Of a stretch of 60,868 bases of DNA, positions 5,856-26,127 are shown one piece after another (the stretch's first letter is position 1; each line of letters starts with the position of its first letter). Origin of the DNA: a virus; the IMG/VR virus record IMGVR_UViG_3300042402_003148, positions 1 through 60,868 of that record; one strand, written 5' to 3'. Below the pieces are notes generated by a model, which saw only the letters and a list, made by a program, of their open reading frames with translations, did no database searches and was not told the DNA's origin. The position numbers and the translations under genes were made by a program.

Positions 5856-7867
5856 TATAAAGCCCTCCCTTTTATGTCTTTGTTTGGATATTTTATTTCG
5901 AATATTGATGGGTCTAACGAAGGATAAACTATCTTACCTTTAGTTGCCTCATCTATGTTGTATCTATTTGGTGAATAATTACCATCTCCACCACATAAAT
6001 TTGAAAGCTTTACCGATGGTACACTCATTACTCCGTCTACATTTGCAAGAATCAATTCTATTTCTGAAATATTGATTGGTTTATTAAATGTCCAATTATC
6101 TATATTAAAATACTCTTGTAATTCGGTTAAACAATTTGTTACAACTTCTCTTTTATTGTAGTTTGAATAACAAATTATCTCAAAATCTACACCTATGTTT
6201 ATAATAAAACCATCTATGATATTAACACCATCGGTTAACATTCTATATTCGGAAATATAAGTTTTTAAATTCTCCTTAACAGCTCTATTTAGGTTTGTCA
6301 ATTTTTTATTTGAATCGTATCCTAAAATATATAAGTTTATTGCAAATGGGTTATTAACTTCACTTAGATTAGATTTCTTTTGAGTAAGATACTTAACTAA
6401 TTCTTTTTGAATATTTTCTTTATTACTATTTTTAAGACTATCTACCAAATTTACAAACTCAGATATGTTTTTAGGGTTTGCCAAAATTGACGAAGGTGAA
6501 TTATTATCTATCTCTCCGTCTGCACTAACATATGCCTTAGTTACACTACCATATCTTTCTGGCATCGATAAAGCTCTTACTATGTAATCCTCTTTAGTAA
6601 CTGCTCTATTTTGAGAACCAAAAGTTGCTAATGCATTTTGTCTAATTTCCTCTATTGTTTCCACACCTCTACCACCTGCTGCAGGTTCTAAGTTTTCAAC
6701 TGCAACGGATTGTTTCATTGAGTTATATAAAACTTCATTATCAACTGCTAATAAATCTTCATCATATTCTATTCTAGAAATACTAGTTAAGTCACCCGTA
6801 TTTACATTAGATTCTACACCACCACCAACTAAGTATTTTATAGTCAATGTTTTATTTACAGGTGCAATTCCAAATGTATTTGTTTTTAAAAAATTCGATG
6901 GGTCTATACCTTGATTTAATCTTTGTATTGAATTAGCCAATCCCAATCCTACATTTTTTGGATTAGGTAGTAATATTTCATCACTTAATGTAGTATCACC
7001 ACTTCCAAATTCTAAATCTAAGGTATTGTCTGAATTTACCTTAACCGAAAATCTACGAGGTACTTTTTGTACTTCCAAAATGTAAGGTACAACCGATGAT
7101 GATTGATATAATTCACTATTTGATTCTGTATTTGGTTTTTCAACAAATATACTTTCTTGTGCCAAATAAGGAACTTCATAGTATTTTAAATTATCCTGGT
7201 CCGCAACTGATGTTATACCAATTATATTCGTATCACTTAGTGTAGTTGTAGGATAATCGGTTGAGTCACCAAAAGTCTTAGTAGTGGTTACTTCTTGTGC
7301 AGATATTGCTTTAATTCTTTTTGTTAATAAGTAAAAAGTCGGATTACCTGTTGTGTCTCTTTCATGAACATCAATTTCTCTGTCAGTTGTATTTGAAAAA
7401 TCCAAAGAATCTACCGTTCTAAATACTATACTCGAATTTGTAGTAGATGCAACTTCCATTCCATCTTTTATTCTTAAACAATAACTTTCATCCGGGACAA
7501 CACTTGAACCTGAGTTTTTGGATGGAATCAATTGATACACCGTTAATGTTGTAACTGCAGGAGAGGATGTTTTTGGTTTATATCCCATTGTTTGTGCCAA
7601 TGCAACAACATTTTTTCTTTCCGTTGCATTTGCCAACATTGATTCTTTTAATTGAACATCTTGATAGAAAGATAAAATATCTCCTATAACAGCAGCTTGT
7701 TCCAAAAACACCATACCAGGTGACGATTCATTGAAATCAGAATATGTACTTGGAAAATATGTTTTAGTATAATCAATTAGGTTTTGTTTTAAAGTATTAA
7801 AATCTTTACCTAAATAATTTATATTTTTTTCACTCCCCCAACTTTTTTTAACAGGTTTAATAGCCAT
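5855..7867 (-). CDS. Baseplate wedge protein, T4 gp6-like (baseplate J family)
   Basis: A 670-residue protein close in length to T4 gp6, which forms the inner ring of the baseplate wedge. Supporting features are an N-terminus of the type YLGKDFNTLKQNLIDYTKTY with SSPGMVFLEQAAVIGDILSF, and a central segment with AVTKEDYIVRALSMPERYGS, both characteristic of gp6/baseplate J proteins. It is followed directly by a gp25-like gene, a common order in contractile tails. The assignment is made by reading, not by alignment. Confidence 0.85.
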   Translation of the reverse strand: MAIKPVKKSWGSEKNINYLGKDFNTLKQNLIDYTKTYFPSTYSDFNESSPGMVFLEQAAVIGDILSFYQDVQLKESMLANATERKNVVALAQTMGYKPKTSSPAVTTLTVYQLIPSKNSGSSVVPDESYCLRIKDGMEVASTTNSSIVFRTVDSLDFSNTTDREIDVHERDTTGNPTFYLLTKRIKAISAQEVTTTKTFGDSTDYPTTTLSDTNIIGITSVADQDNLKYYEVPYLAQESIFVEKPNTESNSELYQSSSVVPYILEVQKVPRRFSVKVNSDNTLDLEFGSGDTTLSDEILLPNPKNVGLGLANSIQRLNQGIDPSNFLKTNTFGIAPVNKTLTIKYLVGGGVESNVNTGDLTSISRIEYDEDLLAVDNEVLYNSMKQSVAVENLEPAAGGRGVETIEEIRQNALATFGSQNRAVTKEDYIVRALSMPERYGSVTKAYVSADGEIDNNSPSSILANPKNISEFVNLVDSLKNSNKENIQKELVKYLTQKKSNLSEVNNPFAINLYILGYDSNKKLTNLNRAVKENLKTYISEYRMLTDGVNIIDGFIINIGVDFEIICYSNYNKREVVTNCLTELQEYFNIDNWTFNKPINISEIELILANVDGVMSVPSVKLSNLCGGDGNYSPNRYNIDEATKGKIVYPSLDPSIFEIKYPNKDIKGRAL

Positions 7868-18418: not shown

Positions 18419-18928
18419 TTAAATTAATGAACTTAATTTTAAATTACCTACCCTTAATCTTTCTGTTGAATTTAAATCGAATATATCTTCATAATAAATA
18501 ATATCAATATTCAATAATTTACCCAATATATGTAAATCTTCATTTTTACTAATTACATATTTATACCATTGATTAAAATTTGGAGTTGAATACCATTCAT
18601 ATTTTTCATTATATTGAAATCCATTTCGGTGATTATAATCCAAAAACGATAAACTCTCTGCACATGCTTTTAAATCCTTTCTTGATAATAAAATAATTTT
18701 ATCAAATTCTTTAGATTTATTAAACCAATAATTTACATAATCTTTTTGGCCTATTGGGTATGTTTGGTCTATAATTGTTTTTAAAACTACATTATCTTCT
18801 CCATTATAAATAACTCTATTTTGACCATCAAATGGTTCAAATATAGGATTTAAATTATTATCATCGGCTATTTTATTTGTTAAAGATGTAGACCCCGTTC
18901 TAGGTAAACATATTATTAGAATTTTCAT
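18419..18928 (-). CDS. Sulfotransferase-like P-loop protein
   Basis: A 169-residue protein starting KILIICLPRTGSTSLTNKIA, a good match to the 5'-phosphosulfate loop (PRTGSTSL) that binds PAPS in sulfotransferases. IILLSRKDLKACAESLSFL matches the 3'-phosphate contact region. It is short for the family (200-300 residues). It overlaps the next upstream gene by 4 nt (ATGA). It could sulfate a glycan, tyrosine or lipid; the acceptor is unknown. Confidence 0.75.
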   Translation of the reverse strand: MKILIICLPRTGSTSLTNKIADDNNLNPIFEPFDGQNRVIYNGEDNVVLKTIIDQTYPIGQKDYVNYWFNKSKEFDKIILLSRKDLKACAESLSFLDYNHRNGFQYNEKYEWYSTPNFNQWYKYVISKNEDLHILGKLLNIDIIYYEDIFDLNSTERLRVGNLKLSSLI

Positions 18929-19425
18929 ATTAATTTATTCGTTTCTAATTTTATATGTTCATTTTGTAAAAACCAAAGTAATGAATATCTTTCCCCATCT
19001 AAAATAGATGTTATTTCATGTTCAATTCTTACATCAAATAAATAGGTGTTTCCAACTACTTTATTTAAAATTATTTCATCTGGATTGTATAATTTAAAAT
19101 CACCACCACTAAAATCATTATTTAATAAAACACCAACAGCATATACCCTATCGTCTCTAATATCGTTATGTTTTCCGAACCAATCACCTTTCGTAAATTT
19201 ATGAAAATGTATCCTTTTGTTTATTGTTCTGATTTGAATGTTTGTTTCCTTTTGTAAAAACTCCTTCAACTTATCAAATAACCAAATAGTATTTTTATTA
19301 TATTCTATACTCATTGATTCATACATTCTATCTTTATAGTTCCAATTTTGTTTTTTTGATTTTGATATATCAATAATTGATTGACATTCTTCTTGATTAA
19401 ATAATATTTTTTGTTTTAATATCAT
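18925..19425 (-). CDS. Fe(II)/2-oxoglutarate dioxygenase (prolyl hydroxylase type)
   Basis: A 166-residue protein with the metal triad in GKHNDIRDDRVYAVGVLLN (HxD) and FDVRIEHEITSILDGERYSL (distal His and the Arg that binds 2-oxoglutarate). SGGDFKLYN is the usual GG-strand. It would hydroxylate a protein or small-molecule side chain. ATGA overlaps on both sides place it in a translationally coupled operon with the radical SAM gene. Confidence 0.85.
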   Translation of the reverse strand: MILKQKILFNQEECQSIIDISKSKKQNWNYKDRMYESMSIEYNKNTIWLFDKLKEFLQKETNIQIRTINKRIHFHKFTKGDWFGKHNDIRDDRVYAVGVLLNNDFSGGDFKLYNPDEIILNKVVGNTYLFDVRIEHEITSILDGERYSLLWFLQNEHIKLETNKLI

Positions 19426-20480
19426 AAAAGTTTTGATAAGTTTTTTCTTAATTTGTGTTTTTTAATTATATCATTCATATTATGAATACACATTTGATTA
19501 AAACAAACTTTATTTATTTCATTTAAAAATTCTTTAAATTCAGGATGTGATTCTGACCATATTTGTTTTATTAAAAATTCACCATCACTATATGTTCCCC
19601 AATTTGTAATTTTATTAAAATATATTTCAACCTTTTCTTTAAGTATATTTTTCATCAATTTATAAAATGAGTCCATCTCTGTGTAATTTGTATCTTGCAC
19701 AACGAATGAAGCTCTAACTTTTTTTATTGTTTCACATTTAGAAATAAAATTTAAGTTTTCAATTAAAACACCCCAATCCCCACCTCTTCTAATAATTTCA
19801 TATGTTTTTTGAGTTGATGCATCTATACTTATTTCTATTGTTTTTATTAAATGGTGTATGTGGCTTAAACTATTCCACATTTTTTCATTTAATAATAATC
19901 CATTGGTATGTAAATGAATTTGTTTTACATTTGGGAATTTTTTATTATCAAAATTTAGTAACAATTTTCTAATTGATTTTGAAGCAAATGGGTCAGCTGA
20001 CCCTGAAAGATATAACATCTTTATATTTTTACCATAAACATCGGCAATTTTATTTATTGTATTATCAATAAATTCTAATTCACTTCCATCTGCCATAATT
20101 GCAACATTTCTACAAGATGGACATGATAAATTACAACTTCTGTCAAATGCAAAATTTATATTAGTAGGCCCTTTTTTGTATTTTTCGTATTTAAAATTTT
20201 CTTTAGAAATAAAACCTTGGGGTATTTGTTTATTATTTATTAAATTTGATAAATATGGGCATTGCGTTTTTGAACAATATTTATACGAACCATCTATAAT
20301 GGATTCTTGAATATTTTTTAGTGTTTCACTTTCCCAAGCGGTTTCAATATCATCTAAACTACATAATCTATCAGGTAACCATGAGGGACAACAACTATAA
20401 ACTCCATTTTTATGTGCCTCTAAATAAACAAATGGAGTTGTACATAGATATTTTTTTAGTATTTCTTCCTTTTGACTCAC
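19422..20480 (-). CDS. Radical SAM protein with N-terminal SPASM-like Cys region
   Basis: A 352-residue protein. NFAFDRSCNLSCPSCRNVA has the CxxxCxxC that binds the catalytic 4Fe-4S cluster. The N-terminal 90 residues contain more Cys (VYSCCPSWLPDRLC, SKTQCPYL) in an arrangement like a SPASM/twitch auxiliary-cluster domain placed before the radical SAM barrel. SPASM enzymes modify peptides or carbohydrates. It sits between two dioxygenase genes with ATGA overlaps, suggesting sequential modification of one substrate. Confidence 0.85.
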   Translation of the reverse strand: MSQKEEILKKYLCTTPFVYLEAHKNGVYSCCPSWLPDRLCSLDDIETAWESETLKNIQESIIDGSYKYCSKTQCPYLSNLINNKQIPQGFISKENFKYEKYKKGPTNINFAFDRSCNLSCPSCRNVAIMADGSELEFIDNTINKIADVYGKNIKMLYLSGSADPFASKSIRKLLLNFDNKKFPNVKQIHLHTNGLLLNEKMWNSLSHIHHLIKTIEISIDASTQKTYEIIRRGGDWGVLIENLNFISKCETIKKVRASFVVQDTNYTEMDSFYKLMKNILKEKVEIYFNKITNWGTYSDGEFLIKQIWSESHPEFKEFLNEINKVCFNQMCIHNMNDIIKKHKLRKNLSKLL

Positions 20481-21064
20481 ATCAATGTTTTTTTCTCTTT
20501 TAAAATTGGAAAATCAAATAATACATTTCCTGCAATTACAATTCTATCGATAGTAGAATTAATAGAAGTATCAGGTCTATGATATACATCTGCGGGGAAA
20601 ATAACGAGTTCATTTTCTTCTGGTAAAAACATCCTTTGTACATTATCTTCGTTATCCACAAAAAATAATTTACCATCGTTCCCATTTAAATTATTCGGCA
20701 TTTGTACATAATATGTGAATGTATAATTGCTTTCTATTGATTTTTTTACATGTGGAGAAAACATTGTGTGATTATGATAATGAGATTGTGTGTTCTCATT
20801 TCTTGAAATAAAAATCCATGGATATAAACAATAATCAACTTCTTCAACGTTTTTATCTTTTTTAAATAATTCTATACATTTCTTAACACCATAATTTAAA
20901 ATAAAATCAATTTCTTTACATTTTAATATTATGTTAGTTTGAATTCCTGGAGTTATATATGATGATTCATTATTAAATAATGATACGTTTTGGTGGATTT
21001 TTTTTATTAAAACGTCCTTCTCGTATGGATATTTTATTTTTTCTCTAAATATTTTATCAATCAT
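20477..21064 (-). CDS. 2OG-Fe(II) oxygenase-like protein (2OG-FeII_Oxy_5 type)
   Basis: A 195-residue protein with SHYHNHTMFSPHVKK as the first metal-binding segment, YTFTYYVQMPNN, a GKLFFVDNEDN strand, and VIFPADVYHRPDTSI with the distal His. A C-terminal RIVIAGNVLFDF completes the pattern of the putative 2-oxoglutarate oxygenase family seen in aquatic phages. It is coupled to both neighbours by ATGA overlaps. Confidence 0.75.
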   Translation of the reverse strand: MIDKIFREKIKYPYEKDVLIKKIHQNVSLFNNESSYITPGIQTNIILKCKEIDFILNYGVKKCIELFKKDKNVEEVDYCLYPWIFISRNENTQSHYHNHTMFSPHVKKSIESNYTFTYYVQMPNNLNGNDGKLFFVDNEDNVQRMFLPEENELVIFPADVYHRPDTSINSTIDRIVIAGNVLFDFPILKEKKTLM

Positions 21065-21675
21065 AGTAAACTAATTGTATTTTTTGTTTTAAGATTTGTT
21101 TCATAAATCCATCCACTTATAGAATATCGTTTATAGTTTTCATCAACAATTTCATCTACATAATGTAAATCTTTTATATTTTCAACATCAAATATATTTA
21201 AACTATTAAATTTTGGTAATAATTTGTATGTAATATTATTTTTATCATCTATGAAGTTTAAGCAACCTCCCTTTGTCTCATCTGCATTTTTTGTCAAATT
21301 ATAAACAAAAGCATATTTTCTATCTAAAGATATATCATTATGTGGAGATAAAAAATGACCATATGTATATTTTGAAACAAATATACTCTGTGCTGTAAAA
21401 AACTTATCTTCTAGTAATTTACTAATTTCTAATTCGAAATTTAACAGAAAAAATAAGTTTTGTATAAATTTTTTATTTTCAATACTACTATACCAATATG
21501 AAAATTCACCTTCTTTAAATTTTGATTTTTCATATTCATAAGATTTTTTATGTTTTGAATTTGTAATCCAATCGGTTTGAGAATTGATTATATCATATAC
21601 ATTATTTGCCTTATCTTCAGATAAAAAATTTTCTATTTGTATTGGTTTTCTTTTTAATTCCTCAATATAATCCAT
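21061..21675 (-). CDS. Fe(II)/2-oxoglutarate dioxygenase
   Basis: A 204-residue protein with SPHNDISLDRKYAFVYNLTK (HxD), KGGCLNFID, a second His in IKDLHYVDEIV and the 2-oxoglutarate Arg in NYKRYSISGWIYE. It resembles the SM-20/prolyl hydroxylase group. It is the third such enzyme in four consecutive genes. It overlaps the downstream gene by 4 nt and lies 11 nt after the sulfotransferase-like gene at 21687. Confidence 0.8.
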   Translation of the reverse strand: MDYIEELKRKPIQIENFLSEDKANNVYDIINSQTDWITNSKHKKSYEYEKSKFKEGEFSYWYSSIENKKFIQNLFFLLNFELEISKLLEDKFFTAQSIFVSKYTYGHFLSPHNDISLDRKYAFVYNLTKNADETKGGCLNFIDDKNNITYKLLPKFNSLNIFDVENIKDLHYVDEIVDENYKRYSISGWIYETNLKTKNTISLL

Positions 21676-21686
21676 AACACTTAATT

Positions 21687-22373
21687 TTATACTAAATTAC
21701 CTTTTTTTACAAATCTTGATTCAAAAGTATCCCACAAAAAAGTTTTTAGTTCATCATTAACTTCTATTTTATTTTTTATTTTTTTAGTATCATTCATTTT
21801 GTTAATTTCTAATTTTACTCCAAATCTATCGTTTATAAAATCAATAAATTTATCAATTTCAGTTATATCAAATTCGTATGTACATTTTTCATTTTCAGTC
21901 CAAAAGTTTTTAGAACCAAAAATACATAAAGTGCCAGTTAAATTTTTATTTATTTTAGTAAAAAAACTATTGTAACAATCCCGCATTTCTTCTAAATTTT
22001 CTGAATATATTGCATTTGCAAAATTAGTATTGAAATGTTTGTAGATAAATTCATTATCAACATCTTTCCAATCTATAATTAGTTCATTTTTATGTGTGTT
22101 TTTAGAAACATCAAAAAAAAATTCTAATGCACTTAACCATCTATCAAACCAATTTCTATTAATACAAAACGTTTCTTTTATTCCAAACTCATCTATACAT
22201 TGACTTTTTCTTAAATGGTAATGTTTTAAATTACTTTTACTATTTTTAATAAATGATTCTATTAAAGGTGATTTTTTAATTTTTAAAACTGACGATTCAA
22301 ATGAATTTATTAAAGAAACAGATGCACACCTTGGTATTGAAATCCAAATAAGTTCATTATTTATGAGTAACAT
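21687..22373 (-). CDS. Sulfotransferase-family-2-like protein
   Basis: A 228-residue protein. LIWISIPRCASVSLINSFE aligns with the nucleotide loop of sulfotransferases (usually PRxGSTSL or PKTGSTSL) but has PRCASVSL, so the usual Gly is replaced. FCINRNWFDRWLSALEFFF matches the RDPxxRxxSA region. It may bind PAPS weakly or act on another donor. It is the second sulfotransferase-like gene in this cassette; the other (18419-18928) has a canonical loop. Confidence 0.65.
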   Translation of the reverse strand: MLLINNELIWISIPRCASVSLINSFESSVLKIKKSPLIESFIKNSKSNLKHYHLRKSQCIDEFGIKETFCINRNWFDRWLSALEFFFDVSKNTHKNELIIDWKDVDNEFIYKHFNTNFANAIYSENLEEMRDCYNSFFTKINKNLTGTLCIFGSKNFWTENEKCTYEFDITEIDKFIDFINDRFGVKLEINKMNDTKKIKNKIEVNDELKTFLWDTFESRFVKKGNLV

Positions 22374-22385
22374 ATTAAAATATTT

Positions 22386-22655
22386 TTATAGTAATCTATT
22401 TGATTCTGATTTTACTTTTGTAAAAAATTCATCATCAACATCATCCCATTTTCCTTTAGGACATGCATTTTGTTTTTCTGAAAATATTTTTTTTGAAAGT
22501 GGGCAACCACAGGCCGAACAAATAGGTTTTTTAATTACATATTTTTTGTATTCACATGTATCACATATGTTAACTCTATTTAACGCAAGTGTTTTTTGTT
22601 CTTCATTTGGATTAAATGAAATAATCCATGCATTAATTATCTCTGCAATTTTCAT
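22386..22655 (-). CDS. Zinc-ribbon protein, paralogue of 38779-39039
   Basis: An 89-residue protein with a Cys pattern NICDTCEY, CSACGCPLSKKIFS and NACPKGKWDD, probably binding one or two metals. A second gene at 38779-39039 shares EIIN.W, LC..C, CGC.ISAK..S and CPLSKW, so the two are paralogues about 16 kb apart. It lies between the sulfotransferase-like gene and the 25-codon ORF. Function unknown. Confidence 0.7.
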   Translation of the reverse strand: MKIAEIINAWIISFNPNEEQKTLALNRVNICDTCEYKKYVIKKPICSACGCPLSKKIFSEKQNACPKGKWDDVDDEFFTKVKSESNRLL

Positions 22656-22672
22656 AACCTATTTAGTAAAAT

Positions 22673-22750
22673 TTAAGAATTTGAACTTACAATTAATGAA
22701 CCTATTTGTGTCATTATTGTATTGATTGTGGTAATTTCTTGTGTTGTCAT
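22673..22750 (-). CDS. Possible 25-residue peptide gene
   Basis: A short ATG-to-TAA frame (MTTQEITTINTIMTQIGSLI, then VSSNS) lies in the 117-nt gap between the Hint/Cys-tail gene and the zinc-ribbon gene. It is rich in Thr, Ser and Ile, all hydroxylatable or sulfatable, and its spacing suits an operon gene. At this length chance occurrence is quite possible; only the location argues for it. Confidence 0.3.
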   Translation of the reverse strand: MTTQEITTINTIMTQIGSLIVSSNS

Positions 22751-22772
22751 ATTTTAAGTATTTTTAATTATA

Positions 22773-24281
22773 TTATAATGGTAAACAAACCAATCCACCT
22801 GCAAAACAAGGGTTTCCACCATTATATGTGCAGTATTCATACATTTTGTCACACCCGCCATTTCCAATACCAAATGCGTAACAAGGTTGGCATTGGTAGT
22901 TATGTTCAATTGCCACAAACATACCAGCATCGGTTTTAGTAAGGAATAAATGTTCATCTTGAACAGTTATTGTCCATCCGTCAAAACCATTAACACTATT
23001 AGTTATATTTGTAACAATTTTTTCTACTACATTTACCGTTTCTAAATTGTCTGTTTTAATTAAAAGTATTTTGTCTCCGATTTGCAACATGTCTACATCG
23101 GTTCCTTCCGAATTTAAAGTAACCCATTTAACAATATCACCTCTTTTAATTAGATATTGTGATATTGATGTATCTTCCCAAGTTGTATTATCATCAAATG
23201 TAATAGTTGTCATTGGTGACAAAATATTTGATTTTTGTTTACCTAAAACTACATTTGTTGAAAAGGTTGAGTTTGATAAAAATTCAGTAAAATTTACACT
23301 ATATGTTTTGAGTTCATTTGAATCTGTTAAATTTGGTTGATTTTCGTATAACTTTATTGTTTTTATTACATCTCCAGCTTGTAATTCTAATCCTGTCTTA
23401 TATGTCCCATCTGCCATCATAACCAAATCGTCATTCATTAATTTTGGTTTATTAATAGTTTGAGTATTCGTTATATATGATTTTCTGAAATTAGAATTTA
23501 TTTCAAATGTTTCAGCATCGTAAGTAACATTTTCAAATAATTGAACATTACCATGTTTAGTATATGCACCAATTGAAATTGATTCCAATGTAGGTGGATA
23601 TAATAGATTATATGAACGAACTATTGTTACTACATTATTTTCAATCTTATTCAAATTTAAATGATATTCCATTAAAAAATATTCATCAGTTACATTTTGT
23701 AATACCACATCTAATTCTTCTAATGTAGAAACTTTAAAAAATTTAGGATATTCATTTCTGTCGTATACCGGATATTTTGCCTTCAAAATAAAATTTGGAT
23801 GTATACCATTATCAGGTATTGTAGTTATGTTTGATACTATTTCATCATTTTCATTTTTGTATGCAAATTGATGTCCAAATTCGGTAGGTTGTATTAACTT
23901 TAAAAAATTAACTTTATCCTTACAATAAGTTTCATCTACTACGGCAGTAACATCATATGCACTTCTTATAATTAAATGTGTATCAGAATCCTCAACATAT
24001 GGGATAGTTATATTACCACTTACTTCTTCAAAGTAATATTCAACATTTAAACTAGTACATAAGGTTTCTAATTTTTCATGGAATTTTCTTATACCACCAA
24101 TATATGTTACTTTATTGAAAGTATTGGTAGTTATAAAATTAGATAAATCATCTAAATTAAATAAAGTATCAATTTCTTCTTGTGTTAATCGGTTAATACC
24201 TGAATTTGTATTTATTTCAATTGGTAATAAATCACCAGCCTCATTATATACAAAATCTGTTCCTAATAATACTGTTCTCAT
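22773..24281 (-). CDS. ATP-grasp-like / Hint domain protein with six-Cys tail
   Basis: A 502-residue protein in three parts. Residues 1-270 resemble an ATP-grasp ligase (LLGTDFVYNEAGDLLPIEIN, then NGIHPNFILKAKY and EYFLMEYH). Residues 277-461 resemble a Hint (intein/hedgehog) domain: VMMADGTYKTGLELQAGDVI at the start, LIKRGDIVKWV and MLQIGDKILLI inside, and WTITVQDEHLFLT...AIEHN at the end. The usual first Cys is absent (Lys/Pro there), so splicing is doubtful. Residues 464-499 contain six Cys and many Gly. An AT-rich motif is 21 nt upstream. Confidence 0.6.
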   Translation of the reverse strand: MRTVLLGTDFVYNEAGDLLPIEINTNSGINRLTQEEIDTLFNLDDLSNFITTNTFNKVTYIGGIRKFHEKLETLCTSLNVEYYFEEVSGNITIPYVEDSDTHLIIRSAYDVTAVVDETYCKDKVNFLKLIQPTEFGHQFAYKNENDEIVSNITTIPDNGIHPNFILKAKYPVYDRNEYPKFFKVSTLEELDVVLQNVTDEYFLMEYHLNLNKIENNVVTIVRSYNLLYPPTLESISIGAYTKHGNVQLFENVTYDAETFEINSNFRKSYITNTQTINKPKLMNDDLVMMADGTYKTGLELQAGDVIKTIKLYENQPNLTDSNELKTYSVNFTEFLSNSTFSTNVVLGKQKSNILSPMTTITFDDNTTWEDTSISQYLIKRGDIVKWVTLNSEGTDVDMLQIGDKILLIKTDNLETVNVVEKIVTNITNSVNGFDGWTITVQDEHLFLTKTDAGMFVAIEHNYQCQPCYAFGIGNGGCDKMYEYCTYNGGNPCFAGGLVCLPL

Positions 24282-24327
24282 ATTTTATGTTTCTATTTGT
24301 CTATAAATATAAATTAATTAAATAAAA

Positions 24328-26127
24328 TTATATTATTTTTTTTCCATATTGAGGTTTTGGAATATCGTTTAAGTCTTCAAATATAATAATAGGTTCTTCA
24401 ATGGTTTCAATCTCATTTGAGATTATAATGTTTGATTGTGATTCTCTTTCTTGTTCTTCTTTCAATTCTAAATATAATCCTCTATTATAGATTGAATAAG
24501 GTATACCTATTCTTTTAAATGTTTCCTCAGCTTGTTCAATTCTTCTCAATCTATCCATTGGAGTATTCCACTTTGTTGTAAAATTAACTCCGTTATGATA
24601 TTCCAAATATTCTTTTTCAACATCTCTCCATTTCACTAATAGAGTTTGATGTAATAAAAATACAGAACAGGTTACTATTTCTGCCATACAATCTCTAAAT
24701 TCTTCTACAAAGTCCAATGTTTTTTGAAAATCTTCATCCGTTTCGTTTAGATATCCAACAATGATTTGCATACCAAATAGTAAAGGAAATTCTAATTCGG
24801 TTCCTTTATTTTCTTCATTTACTTTTCTTACATTTTCAAAAATTTCTCTAACACCTTGAACATCGGTATACTTCTTCATATGTTTAAGAACGGGTTCTGA
24901 ATAAGATTCGAATCCTGTAATAAACTTTGTTAAACCTGCTCTACGATATAATCTTATAGTTTCTATATCTCTCATTTGAGATTGTAATCTAACATTACCA
25001 CCAATATTAATATCTAATCCTCTTTCTATAATTTTTTCACACAATTCTTTTAACCACTTCGGATTACCATTAATAATTGAATCGTGACAAAAGAAATACT
25101 TTTTACCTTTTGCAACCCATCCTTCTATTTCCTCTAACACATTTTCAACGGTTCTATAACGATATTCAGGTATATAATCTGGCACGGAACAAAAAGAACA
25201 CCTATAAGGACATCCTCTACTCATTGTAATAGGCTTAGTGTCCTGATAAACTGACTTATAATAAAAGTTATCTTCTAAAGATGAATAATCTGGAATAGGT
25301 AATGCATCCATTGGAATATTTGCTCTCATTTTATTATGAATGAAAATACCATTACAATTCCAAATTAATCCAGGTATAGACATTAAGGACTCCTCACTCC
25401 AGTCGGACTTAAGTATTTCTACAAATGTCATCTCACCATCACCTCTACTAATTGCATCGATGAAAGTATAGTCGTTTGTTTTATAATTTGAATTAGGCAA
25501 TCTACCAAAGTCTAACACTTCAACACCATTACCACCAACTAAAATTTTAACCTCTGAATATTTTTCTTTTACTAATTTTGCAATTGCAAGTGTTCCATCT
25601 ATATTACCATCAATGATACTAAATCCTAAAAATTTCGGTTTTGCCTTTTCAATATATCTACCTACAAATCCATATGCAATGTCGTATGTTTCCTGAAAAT
25701 TGTATAATAGATGAAATTGACTTTGTTTAGAGTATGTGTTAAATAAATTGAAAAACTCACCCTGTTTATCCGGTGGGTTCAAAAAGAAATAATCGATTAC
25801 AGGGTCTATAATTGCAACCCTTAATTCGGGTTCATATTTATCTATCCAAGACTTTAAACCAACTATACCAGAATAATATCCACTTTCATTGATATTAGGA
25901 ACTTGCATTAACAAACAATCTTGTTCTTCGATGTCTTGGAAATGGAATTTGTGTTCTATCTCTAATCCTTTGCCTTTCTCTGCAAAAACAGTTTGACGCA
26001 TGTATTGTAGTAAATCGACTTTGATATCAAATACCTCAACACCACTTTTCATTTGGTCATCTACCCTATTCTCAACTTTTTGAATTTGACTTTCAATATC
26101 AGGACTAATGATTTCGTCAATTTGCAT
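24328..26127 (-). CDS. B12-binding-domain radical SAM protein
   Basis: A 599-residue protein. Residues about 150-260 form a cobalamin-binding Rossmann domain (FLGFSIIDGNIDGTLAIAKL, VKILVGGNGVEVLDFGRLPN). ITMSRGCPYRCSFCSVPDY has the CxxxCxxC cluster motif, and the barrel continues to GMQIIVGYLNETDEDF. Family members carry out methylations and other difficult C-C or C-P chemistry. It is 47 nt upstream of the Hint-domain gene. A promoter-like site (26147-26177) lies 20 nt before its start, so it may begin the modification cassette transcript. Confidence 0.88.
   Translation of the reverse strand: MQIDEIISPDIESQIQKVENRVDDQMKSGVEVFDIKVDLLQYMRQTVFAEKGKGLEIEHKFHFQDIEEQDCLLMQVPNINESGYYSGIVGLKSWIDKYEPELRVAIIDPVIDYFFLNPPDKQGEFFNLFNTYSKQSQFHLLYNFQETYDIAYGFVGRYIEKAKPKFLGFSIIDGNIDGTLAIAKLVKEKYSEVKILVGGNGVEVLDFGRLPNSNYKTNDYTFIDAISRGDGEMTFVEILKSDWSEESLMSIPGLIWNCNGIFIHNKMRANIPMDALPIPDYSSLEDNFYYKSVYQDTKPITMSRGCPYRCSFCSVPDYIPEYRYRTVENVLEEIEGWVAKGKKYFFCHDSIINGNPKWLKELCEKIIERGLDINIGGNVRLQSQMRDIETIRLYRRAGLTKFITGFESYSEPVLKHMKKYTDVQGVREIFENVRKVNEENKGTELEFPLLFGMQIIVGYLNETDEDFQKTLDFVEEFRDCMAEIVTCSVFLLHQTLLVKWRDVEKEYLEYHNGVNFTTKWNTPMDRLRRIEQAEETFKRIGIPYSIYNRGLYLELKEEQERESQSNIIISNEIETIEEPIIIFEDLNDIPKPQYGKKII

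Follow-up and report, generated by a model that had tools for sequence, protein, structure and literature searches.

What does a Hint domain do for a phage once it has lost its N-terminal Cys? The question is raised by the open reading frame P0001 in IMG/VR virus record IMGVR_UViG_3300042402_003148, which was analyzed over its whole length of 60.9 kb (hereafter, the window). Its T4-type baseplate wedge genes, along with a gene for a DNA ligase, mark the window as part of a contractile-tailed phage. A first-pass annotation made from the letters alone had placed an open reading frame at positions 22773 to 24281 and had seen in it a Hint domain devoid of the usual nucleophile, with a six-Cys tail that might be cut off as a peptide. 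The reading frame was borne out: it lies on the minus strand and encodes 502 amino acids, made up of a permuted ATP-grasp-like half, a degenerate Hint domain, and a Cys-rich tail.

Results

The P0001 family

Searched on its own, P0001 had no match in Pfam and no sequence match in PDB, and the PHROG search likewise returned nothing useful. Relatives were collected by scanning IMG/VR with the protein and then with growing alignments. The scans yielded 95 distinct sequences, 22 to 83% identical to P0001; together with P0001 they form the 96-sequence alignment (A7) on which the residue counts below are based. No member of the family was found in GTDB genome contigs, and no convincing homolog was present among the annotated phages searched (INPHARED). 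An AlphaFold2 model of P0001 built on the 96 sequences had a mean pLDDT of 83.8 and was confident except in the tail; it replaced a model built on eight close sequences (pLDDT of 33).

A Hint domain that retains its C-terminal Asn

Residues 277 to 461 (22899 to 23453, minus strand) have a Hint fold in the model, in line with the first-pass annotation. The best Foldseek match in PDB was BIL2 of Tetrahymena (6y75, E = 4e-10); further BIL domains (6tmm and 2lwy), many inteins, and the Hedgehog Hint domain (1at0) were also recovered, and nearly all of the 45 matches at E ≤ 1e-3 were Hint proteins. The motifs MADGTY, LQAGDV, TVQDEHLF, and EHN are located at residues 289 to 294, 300 to 305, 439 to 446, and 459 to 461, respectively. 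The single-sequence Pfam and PDB searches gave no Hint match; a profile of the family aligned to complete Hint domains (CLLFGT or CLVYGT and a final His-Asn) carried by different proteins in two related phages. These domains, which have Cys-1, are part of probable fiber or structural proteins (L210, 1006 to 2766; L211, 661 to 2001), and both phages also carry a P0001-family protein with the degenerate domain.

In the alignment to the complete Hint domain of L210, the place of the lost Cys-1 is taken by Lys280 (codon at 23442 to 23444, minus strand). Of the Lys and Pro that had been proposed for the nucleophile position, Lys280 is thus the residue opposite the lost Cys, and Pro279 is merely adjacent. 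Cys was found at this site in none of the 96 sequences, which have Lys (52), His (29), Ile (14), or Phe (1) instead. The block-B His, which serves the N-terminal step, is missing as well: the TxxH motif reads TSIS in P0001, with Ser374 in place of His, and the position is occupied by Ser in 73 sequences, Cys in 19, Val in 2, and Thr in 2. The block-F His site contains His in 41 and Asp in 44 of the 96 sequences. At the other end of the domain, the proposed Asn-cyclization site, His460-Asn461 (22899 to 22904, minus strand), is kept: His is present in 95 of 96 sequences and Asn in all of them. Asn461 is the sole invariant residue of the ~185-residue domain in an alignment that extends down to ~22% identity. 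The residue that follows it (+1) is unrestricted and can be Gly, Ser, Ala, Tyr, Val, Pro, Phe, Thr, or others.

In the accepted mechanism, the N-terminal acyl shift is initiated by Cys-1, and cleavage at the C-terminal end is the work of the final Asn, with help from the penultimate and block-F His residues, each of which is dispensable in some inteins (PMC4031507; PMC7664689). BIL domains resemble the P0001 domain in their fold, their C-terminal His-Asn, and the absence of a required nucleophile at +1, but they keep Cys-1 and, with Cys-1 and Asn, cleave at both ends; all 96 sequences of the P0001 family lack both Cys-1 and the block-B His. Class 2 and class 3 inteins also lack Cys-1. Class 2 inteins still splice via the +1 nucleophile, whereas the Cys, Ser, or Thr that class 1 or 2 inteins require at +1 is not maintained across our 96 sequences. 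Class 3 inteins splice via a WCT motif with a block-F Cys; this motif was not found, residues 266 to 460 of P0001 contain no Cys, and the Hint-domain Cys residues of the relatives are clade specific, with none conserved family-wide.

The complete absence of Cys-1, combined with an invariant Asn461, a nearly invariant His460, and a free +1 position, is the pattern expected from selection for C-terminal cleavage alone. Such one-sided cleavage, which the first-pass annotation had suggested, is the best-supported chemistry for the Hint domain by virtue of the invariance of Asn461; that the bond is cut we infer from this conservation. Since inteins usually couple Asn cyclization to the earlier steps, a Hint domain that lacks Cys-1 might work slowly or not at all. 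In the extreme case, the domain would be dead and kept as a fold only, with His-Asn playing a structural role and the tail attached as a metal-binding or disulfide module. Such an outcome agrees with the loss of Cys-1 and the block-B His and with the Asp found at the block-F site in 44 of 96 sequences. However, it would be odd for a dead fold to have, as its only invariant position, the very residue responsible for C-terminal cleavage, and we consider this explanation unlikely.

The N-terminal half

Residues 1 to 270 (23472 to 24281, minus strand) look like a circularly permuted ATP-grasp domain. The assignment is based on the residue pattern and on one ATP-grasp match of the model in Foldseek (1m0t, E = 3e-4), which is yeast glutathione synthase, a permuted ATP-grasp enzyme; Pfam searches gave no ATP-grasp match for this half. 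The pattern looked for comprised two Lys, a hinge acid, an Arg, and a D...E-x-N metal site. In the permuted order, Asp9 and Glu22-x-Asn24 stand at the N terminus and are followed by Lys123, Lys167, Glu205, and Arg222. Asp9, Glu22, Asn24, Arg106, Asp110, Asp116, Lys167, and Arg222 are invariant in the 96 sequences, and Lys123 (94 of 96) and Glu205 (85 of 96) are nearly so. The putative E-x-N metal site of P0001 comes ahead of the remaining ATP-grasp-like residues, as the E-x-N site does in eukaryotic glutathione synthetase, which, unlike P0001, is not fused to a Hint domain and a Cys-rich tail.

A hypervariable Cys-rich tail and the modules that follow it

The 41 residues after EHN (residues 462 to 502; 22776 to 22898, minus strand) contain six Cys, as had been noted on first reading, and are modeled with low confidence. 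In most members, the tail is 23 to 56 residues long, added domains being left out. Six Cys are present in 59 sequences, eight in 32, and seven in 2, with 4, 10, or 12 also occurring; the number is even in 94 of 96 sequences and equals six or eight in 91. With counts of 96/96, 96/96, and 91/96, the loss of Cys-1, the retention of Asn461, and the tail Cys cannot be ascribed to chance. When proteins that are 65 to 80% identical are compared in pairs, their tails are 35% identical (24% outside the shared Cys), compared to 73% for the N-terminal half and 68% for the Hint domain. The paired Cys suggest disulfides, metal binding being another possibility. Comparison of the tail with a plant hevein-like antimicrobial peptide gave a nonsignificant E value of 5. 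Branch-B members of the family (e.g., L136-L187) mostly have a Lys or Lys-Leu/Ile C terminus after a Gly-rich stretch, unlike the branch to which the window belongs.

In several relatives, the tail is followed by a further module. In L166 (8001 to 9950), a complete second Hint domain comes directly after it (Pfam Hint, E = 8.5e-9; Intein_splicing, E = 6.6e-9), so that the same protein has a cutting module on each side of the Cys-rich segment, the degenerate one first. In three other relatives, L130, L189, and L061, the tail is directly followed by an S74-like chaperone. The L061 module matched PF13884 at E = 0.0033, which falls below the cut-off of that family; the L130 module weakly matched an annotated S74 structural protein (E = 0.04); and the L189 module matched those of L130 and L061 at E ≤ 5e-21. 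The modules of L130 and L189 are 93% identical despite belonging to distant proteins from separate branches, which indicates that the S74-like cassette moves and is exchanged at this position. Release of the tail as a peptide, proposed in the first-pass annotation, fits the arrangement in L166, while the S74-like chaperones allow for a tail that stays bound to the virion.

The S74-like modules of these three relatives point toward a virion fiber. P0001 could be an adhesin built into the phage tail or fiber, in which the Cys-rich tail forms a disulfide-stapled, fast-evolving receptor-binding tip, the neighboring enzymes modify this tip or the fibers, and the Hint domain acts as a structural spacer or as a clipper during assembly. 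Apart from the exchangeable S74-like module, such a role is favored by a long fiber-like gene located downstream of the P0001-family gene in 12 loci, by the complete Hint domains in fiber-like proteins of related phages, and by cyanophage Syn9, whose halogenase and 2OG genes also adjoin tail-fiber genes. The S74 cassettes and the proximity of fiber genes are explained better by an adhesin than by a self-processing precursor. On the other hand, an ATP-grasp domain with invariant proposed catalytic residues would be unexpected in a fiber, most members of the family have no trimerization module, and a spacer role leaves the invariance of Asn461 unexplained. We regard the adhesin as a serious but rather doubtful alternative.

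The gene neighborhood

All eight neighboring genes considered in the window are on the minus strand. A B12-binding radical SAM protein ending in KKII is encoded at 24328 to 26127 (PF04055, E = 1.4e-18; PF02310). On the other side of P0001 are genes for an 89–amino acid zinc-ribbon-like protein ending in SNRLL (22386 to 22655); a sulfotransferase-like P-loop protein ending in GNLV (21687 to 22373; recognized by the motif IPRCASVS only, cluster 3, no Pfam match); two 2OG-Fe(II) oxygenases ending in ISLL (21061 to 21675; PF13661, E = 1.6e-17) and KTLM (20477 to 21064; PF13640); a radical SAM protein ending in SKLL (19422 to 20480; PF04055, E = 2.9e-8); a 2OG-Fe(II) oxygenase-like protein ending in NKLI (18925 to 19425; PF13640, E = 2.3e-5, just under the cut-off); and a second sulfotransferase-like protein ending in SSLI (18419 to 18928; motif only, cluster 5, no Pfam match).

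Open reading frames surrounding 102 P0001-family genes were clustered. The zinc-ribbon protein recurs in 86 loci and the sulfotransferase-like protein (family 3) in 85. Also recurrent are many 2OG-Fe(II) oxygenases, a second sulfotransferase-like family, radical SAM/SPASM proteins, an APS kinase (PF01583, E = 3.6e-17), a nucleotidyltransferase, and a carbamoyltransferase; a flavin (Trp) halogenase (PF04820, E = 3e-88) is found in 20 loci. The sulfotransferases are putative, being named from P-loop motifs, with support from the APS kinase nearby. When the search was started from the sulfotransferase-like family, a P0001-family gene was located within 6 kb in 63 of 71 loci, many of them on contigs from the earlier set. 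In the other eight loci, where the sulfotransferase-like genes bear the C-terminal tag described below, no P0001-family gene was found in the contig sequence, and most of these contigs are short. On a 93.7-kb contig of this group (L249), the tagged gene (5998 to 6708) adjoins genes for an APS kinase and a carbamoyltransferase.

In one phage, two full-length flavin halogenases (G010:C1:45838-50442) lie ~25 to 30 kb from the P0001-family gene. Action of the halogenase on Trp of the tail was considered and set aside: Trp occurs in 18 of 18 tails with the gene versus 42 of 77 without it, but the comparison is confounded by ancestry, since almost every branch-B tail contains Trp, whether or not the halogenase is present, and there are large branch-B genomes that lack the gene.

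A common C-terminal tag

In the window (18419 to 26127), seven of the eight neighboring proteins end in Leu or Ile followed by Leu, Ile, or Met; the eighth ends in GNLV. Across the loci, 17 cluster families end in [L/I]-[L/I/M/F], typically after Lys/Asn and Thr/Ser, in 644 of 717 cases; the motif was first spotted by eye, and these counts come from the loci in which it was spotted. Its consensus reads K-K-x-K-[T/S]-L-I. Most neighboring enzyme families, which are mutually unrelated, carry the tag in 71 to 100% of their members: 87% for 2OG oxygenases, 91 and 93% for the sulfotransferase-like families, 74% for the zinc-ribbon protein, 81% for radical SAM proteins, and 90% for the halogenase. 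The frequency is ~9% in background singleton reading frames, 0 to 2% in the neighboring APS kinase, nucleotidyltransferase, carbamoyltransferase, and HSP20, and 0% in the P0001 family.

In two further large phage genomes analyzed end to end, 18 of 207 and 8 of 207 reading frames are tagged, and these concentrate, though not exclusively, around the P0001-family genes. That the tag belongs to these enzyme classes in general was rejected, as 2OG and halogenase proteins were found to be untagged in the three marine phages HTVC008M, Syn9, and P-SSM2. Leu codons of the tag follow background usage, which places the constraint on the amino acids; Ile shows a mild preference for ATA. We rejected the idea that the tag arises incidentally from overlaps between translation starts, given this codon usage, the location of 138 of 670 tagged genes more than 30 bases from the next gene, and the 0 to 2% frequency in untagged families of the same clusters. 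Similarity among the tags of a single locus is slightly above expectation (0.421 versus 0.404 after permutation, SD of 0.005). One phage genome (G013) has two P0001-family genes (L024 and L111), each with its own zinc-ribbon and sulfotransferase-like neighbors and with differing tags; the two tagged neighbors of one copy end in Phe, and those of the other end in Ile or Leu.

Overall, the tag on enzymes surrounding the P0001-family genes suggests an undescribed viral peptide-modification pathway. The tagged cluster, the permuted ATP-grasp-like order, and the loss of the block-B His go beyond what the first-pass annotation had reported.

Discussion

The reading that we prefer, with a probability of roughly 0.4, is that P0001 is a self-processing precursor and the hub of a phage-encoded peptide-maturation pathway whose enzymes are recruited by their tag. 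The Hint domain would have given up the N-terminal acyl shift and kept only C-terminal Asn cyclization. With the help of His460 and, in the branch of the window, of His444, Asn461 would cyclize and break the chain just before residue 462, which would set free a short peptide containing paired Cys. Before or after release, the peptide may be tailored by the cluster enzymes through hydroxylation, sulfation, and radical-SAM chemistry and, in some phages, halogenation. The enzymes would be gathered by the common tag K-[T/S]-[L/I]-[I/L], read by a receptor. Our guess for this receptor is the ATP-grasp-like domain, because the P0001-family protein is the one constant protein of the cluster that is never tagged. 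The eight contigs with tagged sulfotransferase-like genes and no P0001-family gene imply that the tag may have another receptor. The precursor explains the invariant Asn, the paired hypervariable Cys, the modules flanking the tail, and the lack of a tag on P0001 itself. It can be combined with the adhesin if the tailored peptide is displayed.

The ATP-grasp-like domain could instead be a ligase. Once Asn cyclization had freed the amino group of the peptide, it would attach the peptide to the tagged proteins at their C-terminal carboxylates, making the tag a site of conjugation and not of docking. The ATP-grasp ligases RimK and tubulin tyrosine ligase, which act on protein C termini, provide precedents, and in every case the last residue of the tag bears the C-terminal carboxylate. 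However, most of the tagged proteins are enzymes, docking is the simpler explanation for these, and we find conjugation very improbable.

Returning to the self-processing precursor, several known systems share some of its features. Short C-terminal peptides common to unrelated enzymes that need to be co-located are known from encapsulin cargo loading and from peroxisomal PTS1; the phage tag differs from them in sequence, in being phage encoded, and in its concentration in one gene cluster. RiPP clusters (graspetides and others) likewise combine a hypervariable Cys-rich C-terminal segment after a conserved N-terminal part with surrounding modifying enzymes; they also involve an ATP-grasp domain, to which the ATP-grasp-like half of P0001 may correspond. 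P0001 differs in having a folded N-terminal part of ~460 residues in place of a leader peptide and, as proposed here, a self-processing Hint domain, and its cluster differs in the C-terminal tag common to the enzymes and in being encoded by large contractile-tailed phages. We tentatively suggest, as a possibility below even odds, that these phages have a new type of peptide–natural product pathway, in which a folded precursor is served by at least 10 unrelated enzymes addressed by one C-terminal tetrapeptide. The precursor would consist of a permuted ATP-grasp domain, a Hint domain reduced to C-terminal cleavage, and a hypervariable disulfide-rich core, and the pathway would reverse the leader-peptide logic of RiPPs, where the precursor carries the address.

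We know of no natural targets for phage 2OG oxygenases, sulfotransferase-like proteins, radical SAM enzymes, or halogenases. The cyanophage flavin halogenase VirX1, for which we found only unnatural substrates described (PMC8407142), belongs to the same Pfam family (PF04820) as the halogenase present in 20 of our loci. The marine-phage homologs that were checked are untagged and have no P0001-family gene nearby.

The Hint part of P0001 is an unusual version of a known domain type, and the tag-organized cluster, if confirmed, would have no described counterpart in the literature searched. A Hint domain conserved across deep divergence with Asn cyclization as its one conserved chemistry would be a natural single-cut protease, of interest for both mechanism and biotechnology, and the C-terminal tag on unrelated enzymes would amount to a simple address system by which a biosynthetic pathway is put together. 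The Cys-rich peptides would also offer a candidate class of substrates for the 2OG oxygenases, sulfotransferase-like proteins, radical SAM enzymes, and halogenases that phages encode.
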